Below are positions 22,846 through 30,803 of a DNA stretch of 32,616 nt, piece by piece. The position numbers and the translations under genes are program-made. The notes below the pieces were generated by a model that had not been told where the DNA came from, did not search any database, and was given only the letters and a program-made list of their open reading frames with translations. Origin of the DNA: Balneolia bacterium (GTDB taxonomy: Bacteria; Bacteroidota; Rhodothermia; Balneolales; Cyclonatronaceae); NCBI GenBank assembly GCA_003566395.1, contig PXDL01000205.1, positions 1 through 32,616 on the forward strand, given 5' to 3'. Positions within the stretch are counted from its first letter, which is position 1; every line of letters starts with the position of its first letter.

Positions 22846-23358
22846 TTATTCCACCTTCACATCGCCGTAGGTAATCAGATTGTCGCGGTGATCAAACACA
22901 AAAACGCGATGCAGTCCGCGTGCTCCTGAAATGGTGCCGCTTTGGCCCGGAGCGAACAAAACGGGGTTAAAGGTGATGCTGTGGCTTCCGATGGGAAGCG
23001 GGCGACGTTCATCAAAATAAAGGACCTTGAAGCGGTTGTTGTCATCAATGGTAGCTACTTCAAGCCCGTTAACAGAATCAAGGCCCGTAATGAGAATCTG
23101 AAACTCAACAGTTTGACCGGTAGTTGGGTTGGGATAGGCCGGCTGGATGACGTCCACAAACCCGGAAAAAAGAGGAGAGACGCGCCAGTCTTTGGGGTCG
23201 TTTTCAATAATTTCCCCGTTTGCGCCCGTTTTGGTGAAGCCGGAGGGAGGCTGAAAAGCTTCCTGTTCAAATTCTCTCTGGGCGTCGTCGGCAGAACTGC
23301 ATGCCGCGATACCTGCAATCAAAAAAGTAAAGAGGAGAGCCGGTTTAAGAAAACTCAT
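22846..23358 (-). CDS. Predicted lipoprotein with C-terminal beta domain (AYPNP motif)
   Basis: Signal peptide with lipobox-like LIAGIAACSS; hydrophilic mature domain. Confidence 0.75.
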   Translation of the reverse strand: MSFLKPALLFTFLIAGIAACSSADDAQREFEQEAFQPPSGFTKTGANGEIIENDPKDWRVSPLFSGFVDVIQPAYPNPTTGQTVEFQILITGLDSVNGLEVATIDDNNRFKVLYFDERRPLPIGSHSITFNPVLFAPGQSGTISGARGLHRVFVFDHRDNLITYGDVKVE

Positions 23359-23661
23359 GAAAAGATAAATCTCACAAAAAAATTAAAGAAAGACAGTTGC
23401 ACTTTTAAACGCAGTTCAAGTGGCGAAATTTTGAAAAAAATGCCGGTGGTAACAAGCCTCGCATAAGATATTCATTTGGGTGGAGCGTTGAAAGAAAGTT
23501 GCGGAACAAACAGGCAGCGCGTATCATTGATATTTATCTTAACGACATCAACCAAGAAATAGAAATGGTGTTGTATCACAATATTTTCTGATGCTCATTG
23601 CGTTAAGGTCACAAGAAAACGCAGGCAGCTCAGGTGTTGAACCTAAACTATTATTTTCTTT

Positions 23662-26051: not shown

Positions 26052-26720
26052 TTGGCTATCTGGAAATATATTGTACTGGCCGGAATTACCGTAATTATTT
26101 CAGCGGCTTTCCTGATAAATATTCCTCGTATCGCGATTCTCGAGGAAACCGCGCGTAATCTTGTCTTCCATGTTCCTATGTGGTTTACCATGTTTGCGGC
26201 TTTTGCAGCGGGTATGGTTTACAGCATCCGGTATCTTTCCACGGAAAATCCGGATGACGATCTCAAAGCCGAGTCGGCCTCTATGGTCGGGATATTATTC
26301 GGAATTTGCGGGCTGCTTACCGGAATGGTCTGGGCACGCTTCACCTGGGGAGCCTGGTGGACCTTCGCCGAACCTAAAATGAATTTATCGGCCATCGCGC
26401 TGCTTATCTATGTAGCCTATTTTATTCTCCGGGCCTCTTTTGATGAAGCGCAGCTGAGGGCACGTTTATCGGCTGTCTATAATATTTTTGCGGCATCAAC
26501 CATTCCGTTTTTACTGTATGTTATACCACGGCAACTGCCGAGTCTTCATCCCGGCGCCGACGGAAATCCTGCGTTCAGCGATATGACGGCTATTGAGCTT
26601 CGTATCGTGTTTTATCCGGCTATAATTGCCTTTTTTGCACTCGCTTACTGGATTACCAATTTGCGATACCGATATGAAAAAACTGTCCGTACTTTACAGG
26701 AACAAAGTAATCCCTTTTGA
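26052..26720 (+). CDS. ccmC: Cytochrome c biogenesis protein CcmC (haem handling, WWD family)
   Basis: NLVFHVPMWFTMF, WARFTWGAWWTFAEPKMN, multiple TM helices. Only TTG (26052) available; in-frame stop at 26034. Confidence 0.88.
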   Translation: MAIWKYIVLAGITVIISAAFLINIPRIAILEETARNLVFHVPMWFTMFAAFAAGMVYSIRYLSTENPDDDLKAESASMVGILFGICGLLTGMVWARFTWGAWWTFAEPKMNLSAIALLIYVAYFILRASFDEAQLRARLSAVYNIFAASTIPFLLYVIPRQLPSLHPGADGNPAFSDMTAIELRIVFYPAIIAFFALAYWITNLRYRYEKTVRTLQEQSNPF

Positions 26721-26754: not shown

Positions 26755-26997
26755 ATGATCATTTCAACACTATCTGCTGTACCCGCCGACACTCTTTCAG
26801 ATGCTTATTCCGACCGCTGGGCCGGAGTTGAAACCGCCTCTGAGGCCAATACGGTGATGCAGTTCATGTCTTCTAACGACCTCATTTTTGTAGTGCTGGC
26901 CGTCAGTTTAATTATTTGGTTTGTACTGGCCTTTTATCTTGTCCGGGTGGATAAGAAAATCGATGCACTCGAAAAAAAGTATTCCGATAAAAGTTAA
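26755..26997 (+). CDS. Small CcmD-like membrane protein
   Basis: 80 aa, one TM helix (LIFVVLAVSLIIWFVLAFYLVRVDKKI), located between ccmC and ccmE. Confidence 0.7.
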   Translation: MIISTLSAVPADTLSDAYSDRWAGVETASEANTVMQFMSSNDLIFVVLAVSLIIWFVLAFYLVRVDKKIDALEKKYSDKS

Positions 26998-27021: not shown

Positions 27022-27414
27022 ATGAAACCACGTGTTATTTTCGGAACGGCAGCCATTGTGGTGTTTACATCCCTGCTGATGTGGAATTTCGGCAATAGTA
27101 TCGGCTCTTATGTCGGTTTCGACGAAGCCGAACTCTCCGGTAATCGTGTTCATGTCGTAGGCAAGTGGGTGAAAGATCAGCCCCACGGTTTCGATCGTGA
27201 ACGCATGGTCTTCACATTTCACATGGAAGATGAATATGGCGAAATCAGGCGGGTGAGCTACAATAAGCCTAAACCCAATAATTTTGAAGACGCCGAAAGC
27301 CTTGTTGTAATCGGCTCGATGCGCAACGGCGTCCTTTACAGTGACGACATGCTCGTTAAATGCCCGTCTAAATACAACGACGCATCCAATCTTGAAATGA
27401 CGAGTGCCGAATAA
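27022..27414 (+). CDS. ccmE: Cytochrome c maturation protein CcmE, CxxxY variant
   Basis: N-terminal anchor, OB-like domain, C-terminal LYSDDMLVKCPSKYND aligning to the haem-binding LAKHDxxY region; position between ccmC/D and ccmF. Confidence 0.88.
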   Translation: MKPRVIFGTAAIVVFTSLLMWNFGNSIGSYVGFDEAELSGNRVHVVGKWVKDQPHGFDRERMVFTFHMEDEYGEIRRVSYNKPKPNNFEDAESLVVIGSMRNGVLYSDDMLVKCPSKYNDASNLEMTSAE

Positions 27415-27467: not shown

Positions 27468-30023
27468 ATGATTGGAATCATCGGCTCCTGGGCTATTATT
27501 ATTTCTTTTCTGGCCGCCCTCGGAGCGTTCATTACCTATTTCTTTGCCTCCCGGAATAATGATTTGAAACTGGAACAGGCCGGTCACATCCTGTTCGGGC
27601 TGAAAGGGGCTATGATGCTTCTGGCTTCCGGCCTGATGGTTTATCTGCTTCTGACCAATCAGTTTCAGTACTTCTATGTCTATAATTACACAAGCTCGGA
27701 TCTGAGCAATGTTTATTTGTGGGCGGCTTTTTACAGCGGGCAGGAGGGAAGCTTCATGCTCTGGATCCTGTGCGGGTTTTTGGTCGGTACGGGCCTCATT
27801 AAATGGACCTCCGACACCTACCGCGCCCCGGTGATGTTTTTCATCACCATGACCCAGGTTTTCCTGCTTTCAATGGTGCTGGGAGTGTCGTTATTCGGCA
27901 TCAATATCGGAGCCGGGCCGTTTCGCCTTACTGCCGAAGAGTTTGCACACTTACCGGTCTTTTTGTCTAATCCCGGTTTTGTGCCCCCCGAGGGCAGCGG
28001 CCTCAACGATCTGTTGCGCAGCCCGTGGATTATCATTCATCCGCCGATCATTTTCCTCGGTTTTGCGATGATGGCCATACCTTTTGCCTACGCGCTGGCT
28101 TCGCTCTGGAAAAGAAAATATCATGAGTGGATTTATCCGGCTCTGCCGTGGACACTCGGTGCGAATCTCTGCCTGCTGATAGCAATATTTTTGGGCGGAT
28201 ACTGGGCCTATGAGACGCTCTCTTTCGGTGGATACTGGGCCTGGGATCCGGTGGAGAACGCATCGCTCGTTCCGTGGATACTCGGCACCGCCGGCATCCA
28301 TACCATGCTGATTCAAAAGCGCAGTAAAATCGCGCACAAAGCCTCCATCATCTTTGCCATACTGGCCTATGTAACCATCGTCTATCAAACGTTTCTTACG
28401 CGTTCGGGCGTGCTTGGGGATGCTTCGGTTCACAGTTTTGTAGATCTCGGTCTGTACAATCAGCTCTTGTTTTTCATTCTTGCCGTTTCCCTTAGCGGAT
28501 TGATCCTGTATTTATACAGAATGAAAGAGCTTCCAAGCCCGAAATCGGAAACCCCGATGTTTTCACGTGAATTCTTCATGTTTTCGGGTGCCATGACGCT
28601 GCTCATCGTCTCGCTTGTGATAATCCTGGGTACAAGCGCTCCTATAATAGGGCGGCTGTTTGTACCGAATCCGACTCCGCCCCTTCCTCAATTTTACAAC
28701 GACTGGACCCTGCCGTTCGGCGTCGCCATTGCCATACTTTCGGTTCTTACGCAGTTCATGTGGTGGAACAAATACAAGGATACCGAATCGTTTGCCGGAA
28801 CCCTTATCGTACCCACGCTGGTGGCATCCCTGCTGAGCATCGCGGTAATTGTACTGGTGAATGTTACGACCGTAGTTTACATGATTCTTCTGTTCGCGGC
28901 TTTCTTTTCAATCGTCGGGAACGGTATTGTGATGATAAAGCTGATTCAGAAAAAGGCACGTCTGATCGGTGGAACGGTAACCCATATCGGTTTTGCTGTT
29001 TTGCTGATCGGTTTTCTCGGGGCCGCCTATGATACGCCTATGCTTGACCGAAATACCATGAATTACAACGCGGCCGTAGAGCGGGGAGAAGTGTTCGACA
29101 GCGACGGATTTCCCGAACAGCAGACGATGGAAGTAATGCAGCTTCATATAAATCAGCCCCGGCGTATTAGTGATGAATATTATGTCACTTTTAAAAATGT
29201 AGAGATAATTCACGAAAATCGTCCTGGTGAGCAGCGGTACACTCTGGAATTTGAGCATGCCCGCTCAGGGGACACATTCACTGTTCAGCCGCTGGTCTAT
29301 CCCATGATTGCAAACTCTACAGCCGGGGATATGAGCTGGACGGTTGATCCTGAGGTGAAAATGGGGCTGTTGCGCGATATCTATGTTTACGTTCAGGGTT
29401 CATCAATTGTAGAACGGGAGAGCAACCGCGTACGGGATGAAACTACGTTTCAGGCCGTTTCGGACATTTTGATGAACGGATATGAGCGGTCGTTGAATCC
29501 CGAGGTGAATGATCTTGTTCGTCTGGCGCCGGGTAAGAAACAGCAGATAGGGCAGTATGAGGTTGCTTTCAATCGCTTTATAAATATGAGTGAAGAAGAG
29601 TTGCCCGAAAATGCGATTGTTGGTGTAAAAGCCGAGGTAGAGCTGACCAACAGGCAAAACCGCTACACCGAGACCGTTATCCCCAAATATGTCATTCTTT
29701 TTGAAGAAGGCCGGAACCGGGTTGAAAGTCCCGCTCTTGAGCTTGAACATTTCGGATTCGACCTTATGTTTGAAACCATCGATACGCAAACCGACGAGGT
29801 CCATCTCCGGTTGATAGGGATTGAAGAAAGTATCGAAGACGAATGGATCATTGTTGCGATTGAGAAAAAACCACTGGTTTCCGTAGTTTGGCTGGGAACA
29901 TTTTTGCTGATGTTTGGTTTCTCTATTGCAATCTACCGCCGCTGGGACGATCAACGCCGAAAAACCCGCGGGCAGCCAAATGCCGGAGATCAACCTGTGG
30001 AAGATGAAACCAAAACGGTATAA
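27468..30023 (+). CDS. ccmF: Cytochrome c biogenesis protein CcmF
   Basis: GQEGSFMLWILCG, SPWIIIHPPIIFLGFA, GGYWAYETLSFGGYWAWDPVENASLVPW (WWD), TRSGVLGDASVHSF. Confidence 0.96.
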   Translation: MIGIIGSWAIIISFLAALGAFITYFFASRNNDLKLEQAGHILFGLKGAMMLLASGLMVYLLLTNQFQYFYVYNYTSSDLSNVYLWAAFYSGQEGSFMLWILCGFLVGTGLIKWTSDTYRAPVMFFITMTQVFLLSMVLGVSLFGINIGAGPFRLTAEEFAHLPVFLSNPGFVPPEGSGLNDLLRSPWIIIHPPIIFLGFAMMAIPFAYALASLWKRKYHEWIYPALPWTLGANLCLLIAIFLGGYWAYETLSFGGYWAWDPVENASLVPWILGTAGIHTMLIQKRSKIAHKASIIFAILAYVTIVYQTFLTRSGVLGDASVHSFVDLGLYNQLLFFILAVSLSGLILYLYRMKELPSPKSETPMFSREFFMFSGAMTLLIVSLVIILGTSAPIIGRLFVPNPTPPLPQFYNDWTLPFGVAIAILSVLTQFMWWNKYKDTESFAGTLIVPTLVASLLSIAVIVLVNVTTVVYMILLFAAFFSIVGNGIVMIKLIQKKARLIGGTVTHIGFAVLLIGFLGAAYDTPMLDRNTMNYNAAVERGEVFDSDGFPEQQTMEVMQLHINQPRRISDEYYVTFKNVEIIHENRPGEQRYTLEFEHARSGDTFTVQPLVYPMIANSTAGDMSWTVDPEVKMGLLRDIYVYVQGSSIVERESNRVRDETTFQAVSDILMNGYERSLNPEVNDLVRLAPGKKQQIGQYEVAFNRFINMSEEELPENAIVGVKAEVELTNRQNRYTETVIPKYVILFEEGRNRVESPALELEHFGFDLMFETIDTQTDEVHLRLIGIEESIEDEWIIVAIEKKPLVSVVWLGTFLLMFGFSIAIYRRWDDQRRKTRGQPNAGDQPVEDETKTV

Positions 30024-30047
30024 ATCAGAAATTATAATACCTTGAAT

Positions 30048-30803
30048 GTGAGCAGGAATTACAGATCAGTTCTGAGAAAGGCCGTGATTCTAACCGGCCT
30101 TCTTGTTTTTATGCATTCCGCCGCTGAAGCGCAGCTACGGGAATCGCAGCTCTTTGTAAGCAATCCGTTTGAATCGGATGAGGTGGTCGAAGAATCCTTT
30201 ACGAACGAGCCTTTTACTCCTGAAATGCGGTCTCCGGGAGGTGCGTTGTTGCGTTCTGCGGTTCTTCCCGGATGGGGGCAGTATTATGCAGACAAATCAA
30301 GCTGGAGGCGCGGACAGTTTCACCTCGCAGCAGATTTGATGCTGGCAAGTACGCTGATCTATCTTTATACCAATGCGAGTATGCTTGAAAACAATATGTT
30401 CGCTCATGCTAATGCATATGCCGGCATCGATTTGCGAACCGTGCCCCGTAATGTTGAGATAGCTGTAAGCGGCAGCAATAGCCTGGATGATTATAATGAA
30501 TCCCAGTTGCGGACACGAAACTGGGACCGTCTGATCGAAGACAGGCCGGAATACAGATGGAATTGGGAATCGGATACAAGAAGGGGAGAATATGTGAGGC
30601 TTCGCGACCGCAGAGACCGGGCCGAACAGCAAATTCCGGCCGTTATTTCTATTATGGTTGTAAACCGCGTGATCAGCGGTGTTCATGCCTTCATCGTGGC
30701 CCAAAATCAAAATGAGATGCTGCAATCTACGCAAATCGGGCTGCATCTCCCTGAAATGACGGGCGGACGCGGAGTAGCAGCTACGGTGTACTTCCGTTTT
30801 TAA
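30048..30803 (+). CDS. DUF5683-like exported/membrane protein
   Basis: Signal peptide ending SAAEAQ; SPGGALLRSAVLPGWGQYYADKSSWRRGQFHLAADLML. Start TTG 30042 or GTG 30048. Confidence 0.7.
   Translation: MSRNYRSVLRKAVILTGLLVFMHSAAEAQLRESQLFVSNPFESDEVVEESFTNEPFTPEMRSPGGALLRSAVLPGWGQYYADKSSWRRGQFHLAADLMLASTLIYLYTNASMLENNMFAHANAYAGIDLRTVPRNVEIAVSGSNSLDDYNESQLRTRNWDRLIEDRPEYRWNWESDTRRGEYVRLRDRRDRAEQQIPAVISIMVVNRVISGVHAFIVAQNQNEMLQSTQIGLHLPEMTGGRGVAATVYFRF

Follow-up and report, generated by a model that had tools for sequence, protein, structure and literature searches.

The ccmE gene of a Balneolia bacterium very probably encodes the haem chaperone of System I*, the cytochrome c maturation machine with a CxxxY-type CcmE. 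The gene lies in the window, the 32,616-nucleotide stretch of DNA analysed here, within a short row of ccm genes (Table 1). System I* itself has already been described, and the extent of the Cys form across the phylum is the sole part of the present analysis with some news value.

Table 1. Positions of ccmE, its motif and the adjoining genes in the window
Feature	Position	Strand	Basis and remarks
ccmC	26052-26720	+	PF01578, 61.4 bits; haem delivery to CcmE
ccmD-like gene, small membrane protein	26755-26997	+	PF20077 (CcmD_alt), 32.9 bits, cut-off 23.5
ccmE	27022-27414	+	130 aa; Cys-type haem chaperone; PF03100, 41.2 bits
LVKCPSKY motif, near the ccmE 3' end	27352-27375	+	translation; homologue and solved-chain alignments
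ccmF, haem lyase	27468-30023	+	PF01578, 93.5 bits; PF16327, 51 bits; 851 aa
DUF5683-like gene	30042-30803	+	PF18935, 25.7 bits, slightly under cut-off; after ccmF in Balneolales loci

The cysteine motif of CcmE

The PF03100 match that assigns CcmE covers the whole protein and exceeds the cut-off of 24.6 bits. Translation agrees with the sequence-only reading in placing Cys114 at TGC 27361-27363 and Tyr118 at TAC 27373-27375, although the MLVKCPSKYND quoted there adds one residue in front of the tabulated motif and two behind it. That reading had also claimed that Cys replaces the haem-binding His, and the alignments bear this out. K-C-P-S-K-Y is unvaried across 29 aligned CcmE homologues, and a profile of these homologues places KCPSKY over the KHDENY of solved E. 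coli (1sr3, 8ce8) and Shewanella (1j6q) CcmE chains and Cys114 over the Cys of the D. vulgaris KCP motif (2kct). When CcmE of E. coli MG1655 was aligned by MAFFT, the register was identical, with Cys114 at the haem-binding His column; thus the alignment to classical and Cys-type CcmE suggested beforehand did not put this residue elsewhere. The family profile was required for the comparison with structures, as a single CcmE sequence gave only a chance match among PDB chains.

The AF2 model of CcmE (pLDDT 84.9) predicts an N-terminal membrane helix (residues 3-26) followed by an OB fold or beta barrel with strands between residues 43 and 113. Top Foldseek matches of the model are CcmE chains, 2kct among them with a TM-score of 0.72 by target length. 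Compared with E. coli CcmE (H130, LAKHDENY), the family, fold, membrane anchor and the Tyr four positions after the haem residue are alike, whereas Cys stands for His and CPSK for HDEN. The Desulfovibrio System I* CcmE (2KCT) shares the Cys for His, the CxxxY-type motif and the OB fold, although similarity to the D. vulgaris protein is seen at profile level only. As a separate observation, a stretch of the Dictyostelium nucleoporin Nup160 (PDB 9hcj chain R0, residues 1584-1650) resembles CcmE both by profile (E = 1e-4) and by fold (Foldseek, E = 7e-4); a CcmE-like OB domain was not expected in a nuclear pore protein of a eukaryote.

Partner proteins and gene neighbourhood

Within the window the cluster order is ccmC-ccmD-ccmE-ccmF, all on the plus strand. 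Both large partners score under the cut-offs of their TIGR models (CcmC, 65.9 bits against TIGR01191; CcmF, 206 bits against TIGR03145), and the best solved match of CcmC is E. coli CcmC (7f02_C, E = 8e-16). In E. coli, the haem ligands are His60 and His184 of CcmC and His173, His261, His303 and His491 of CcmF. Residue mapping carries these to His40 and His166 of CcmC and to His191, His278, His322 and His506 of CcmF, so the E. coli ligands are kept here, and the mapped residues are unvaried in all aligned homologues. The CcmF WWD motif (21 residues) is likewise conserved. Balneolales, like most of the Rhodothermia loci that were read, keep a ccmD-like gene between ccmC and ccmE. For the DUF5683-like protein we know of no role in maturation.

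The closest relatives are Balneolales or Balneolia metagenome assemblies with CcmE identities of 76-85%, and the nearest of them are syntenic over arsC, DUF3108, dUTPase, ccmC, ccmD, ccmE, ccmF, DUF5683 and truA. In the organism's own assembly, ccmB lies on a separate contig (C157), apart from the other ccm genes. For CcmA there is a candidate only, a 207-aa ATPase on contig C308 that reaches 113.7 bits, short of the 131.6-bit cut-off, and is 34% identical to the ccmB-adjacent gene at L157, a locus of another phylum member in which ccmB lies in an apparent ccmABCEF cluster. In this genome ccmB (L082, 8271-8942) and the likely ccmA (L092, 824-1447) both stand away from ccmCDEF; in Salinibacter (L011) ccmB is still found before ccmC. 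Promoter-like sites were no more frequent than in shuffled sequences; terminator-like sites were somewhat more numerous than in shuffles and lay mostly within genes.

The WWD motif of CcmC is altered to WGAWWTFAEPKMN (window 26346-26384), as against WGTWWVWDARLT in E. coli. Balneolales CcmC reads WG(A/T)WWTFAEPK(M/I)N, in which the third Trp has become Phe, one residue is inserted and Asp has become Glu. Most other Rhodothermia CcmC that were read have four additional residues ahead of WWNFDPKQ or a similar sequence, and Cytophagaceae CcmC has WGDWWTNDPKLN (WWTNDP). The change need not be tied to a Cys-type CcmE, given that the third Trp is kept by other phylum members with such a CcmE, e.g. 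as FWSWDPRQ at L157.

Distribution in the class and phylum

CcmE was found in 146 of 146 genomes sampled from the class, as a single copy in all except one. A degenerate pattern for a KCPSKY-coding site also matched in each of the 146, whereas the reversed control pattern gave about 0-2 matches per genome. By-eye comparison of coordinates, among the matches listed, placed the site within the CcmE match, close to its 3' limit, in every case compared. The one class genome with two CcmE (G118, contig C115, 15294-15533, locus L057, and 23325-23567) codes for KCPSKY in both. CcmH was found in none of the 146 class genomes, with positive controls matching.

The wider phylum sample contained CcmE in 193 of 297 genomes and the KCPSKY-coding site in 207, some of these sites occurring by chance in genomes without CcmE. 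Four CcmE-bearing phylum genomes lacked the exact site and, when read, had QCPSKY, RCPSKY or, in two cases, KCPSRY. Cys is present in all 143 motif-bearing CcmE frames that were read (from the phylum and one Chloroflexota contig, with some duplicates), and the only His among the frames read is that of the E. coli control. These frames are part of the samples, and in the remainder Cys is predicted from the pattern. In the sampled genomes, the phylum around the organism, Bacteroidota, seems from such sequence patterns to use the Cys form only. A limited literature search returned no paper on the distribution of Cys-type CcmE in Bacteroidota, and such a paper may still exist.

A search for CcmH in the phylum gave seven weak matches, two of them above the cut-off. 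Four of the matches, in other families of the phylum, were read and rejected as classical CcmH, since they combine a zinc ribbon with a pair of CcmH-like Cys-rich repeats. Proteins of this build (repeats CPCGQC...CTC) stand at L124-L127, and at L125-L127 they are followed by a membrane protein that has a zinc ribbon and the motif CEPCNS...CDACGTTW.

The organism's own assembly (3.99 Mb, 599 contigs, 89% complete) encodes CcmC and CcmF in the window, and CcmB and the sub-cut-off CcmA candidate on their separate contigs. A second or His-type ccmE, named beforehand as what would speak against a Cys-type system, was not found in this 89%-complete assembly, in which 27022-27414 is the sole CcmE match. 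CcmH was not detected there either, so that neither the HxxxY CcmE nor the CcmH of classical System I was found. Such absences are weak by themselves because the genome is only 89% complete; that of CcmH gains support from its absence across the class.

A broader proposal, held with slightly more doubt than conviction, is that a Cys-type CcmE without classical CcmH could be essentially fixed in the CcmE-bearing members of the phylum as their standard System I, with the WWTFAEP of Balneolales CcmC having co-evolved and CcsBA serving the CXXCK haem of NrfA. If the phylum survey holds, the Cys form would be the norm for a very large group of bacteria. This would bear on the question of which form, His or Cys, came first, and on the way in which the thioether to CcmE is broken for haem transfer. 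So far, studies of System I* have dealt with Desulfovibrio and archaea, and it was described as a variant; the phylum offers many natural sequences, including those of the cultured Salinibacter and Aquirufa, for tests of CcmE and CcmC chemistry.

Haem attachment and a second maturation system

The variant was proposed by Allen et al. (2006), and Goddard et al. (2010) are reported to have shown that Desulfovibrio genes with a Cys-CcmE make cytochromes c in E. coli. A 2011 review uses the name System I*, found CPSKY to be the commonest motif (25 of 36 genomes) and listed delta-proteobacteria, chloroflexi and firmicutes as carriers, a list that does not include Balneolales (PMC3601427). It also reports Desulfovibrio System I* to be active in E. 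coli without CcmH and CcmG (PMC3601427). The sequence-only reading had characterized the variant by a CxxxY CcmE and no CcmH; the variant is indeed known, but the lack of CcmH does not define it, as about one-third of bacteria with a Cys-CcmE retain CcmH (PMC3601427).

In Desulfovibrio System I*, CcmD is present and CcmH absent, as here, although ccmA and ccmB are dispersed in the present genome. The Ccm system of M. acetivorans (CcmE C120, CXXXY) also combines a Cys-type CcmE with the lack of CcmH (PMC9084895). The archaea are without CcmD and M. acetivorans has CcmF1 and CcmF2, whereas here a CcmD-like protein and one CcmF are encoded. Relative to E. coli, CcmH is undetected and the CcmC WWD motif altered. 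By analogy with these relatives, CcmC, assisted by the CcmD-like protein, would load Cys114 with haem on the outer side of the cytoplasmic membrane, in which CcmE is anchored, and Tyr118 would be the likely axial ligand. CcmAB, encoded elsewhere, would then release haem-loaded CcmE, and CcmF would receive the haem and, with no classical CcmH involved, join it to apocytochromes that carry CXXCH. Attachment through Cys114, the order of the steps and activity independent of CcmH are all inferred from experiments on relatives.

A different chemistry, in which the thiolate of Cys114 holds haem by non-covalent ligation alone and haem is shuttled without a covalent intermediate, is improbable. It draws on D. 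vulgaris CcmE, for which one report describes non-covalent binding of ferric haem through C127, so that in this species the covalent bond is disputed (PMC3884852). Against it, covalent haem on the Cys of Desulfovibrio CcmE was shown in E. coli (PMC3601427), and M. acetivorans CcmE stains for haem on gels and requires C120 for attachment, the C120A substitution abolishing its haem (PMC9084895). Much further from consideration is the idea that a His-type CcmE acquired the Cys by chance or through an error of sequencing, a vanishingly small prospect: the entire CPSKY block, more than one codon, is present and unvaried in relatives, and this conservation rules it out.

The claim of the sequence-only reading that this organism uses the variant agrees with the single, Cys-type CcmE, the undetected CcmH and the class-wide pattern. 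System I* is not the only route, however, because nrfH, nrfA, a ResB/CcsB-like gene and ccsA, i.e. a System II, stand in a row on the minus strand of another contig of the same assembly (C321, locus L091, 739-5259). System II (CcsBA/ResBC; NrfI in Wolinella) differs from the Ccm machine in using no CcmE; here its ccsB and ccsA form a pair of their own next to nrfHA. This cluster, together with the dispersal of ccmA and ccmB, would suit a secondary role for ccmCDEF with CcsBA maturing most c-type cytochromes, but we regard that arrangement as unlikely. The occurrence of CcmE in every sampled class genome with an unvaried motif suits a housekeeping role, and the nrfA adjoining ccsBA (NF008339, 605 bits) has a CXXCK motif (CWTCK), in keeping with a dedicated lyase of the NrfI kind. 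In Wolinella, maturation of the CXXCK haem of NrfA is carried out by NrfI, a fused CcsBA (PMC12285233); by analogy, CcsBA of C321 is likeliest a lyase dedicated to NrfA. The place of C321 in the assembly may be a binning error; its GC content of 0.514, beside 0.49 for the window and 0.503 for C157, bears no foreign mark.
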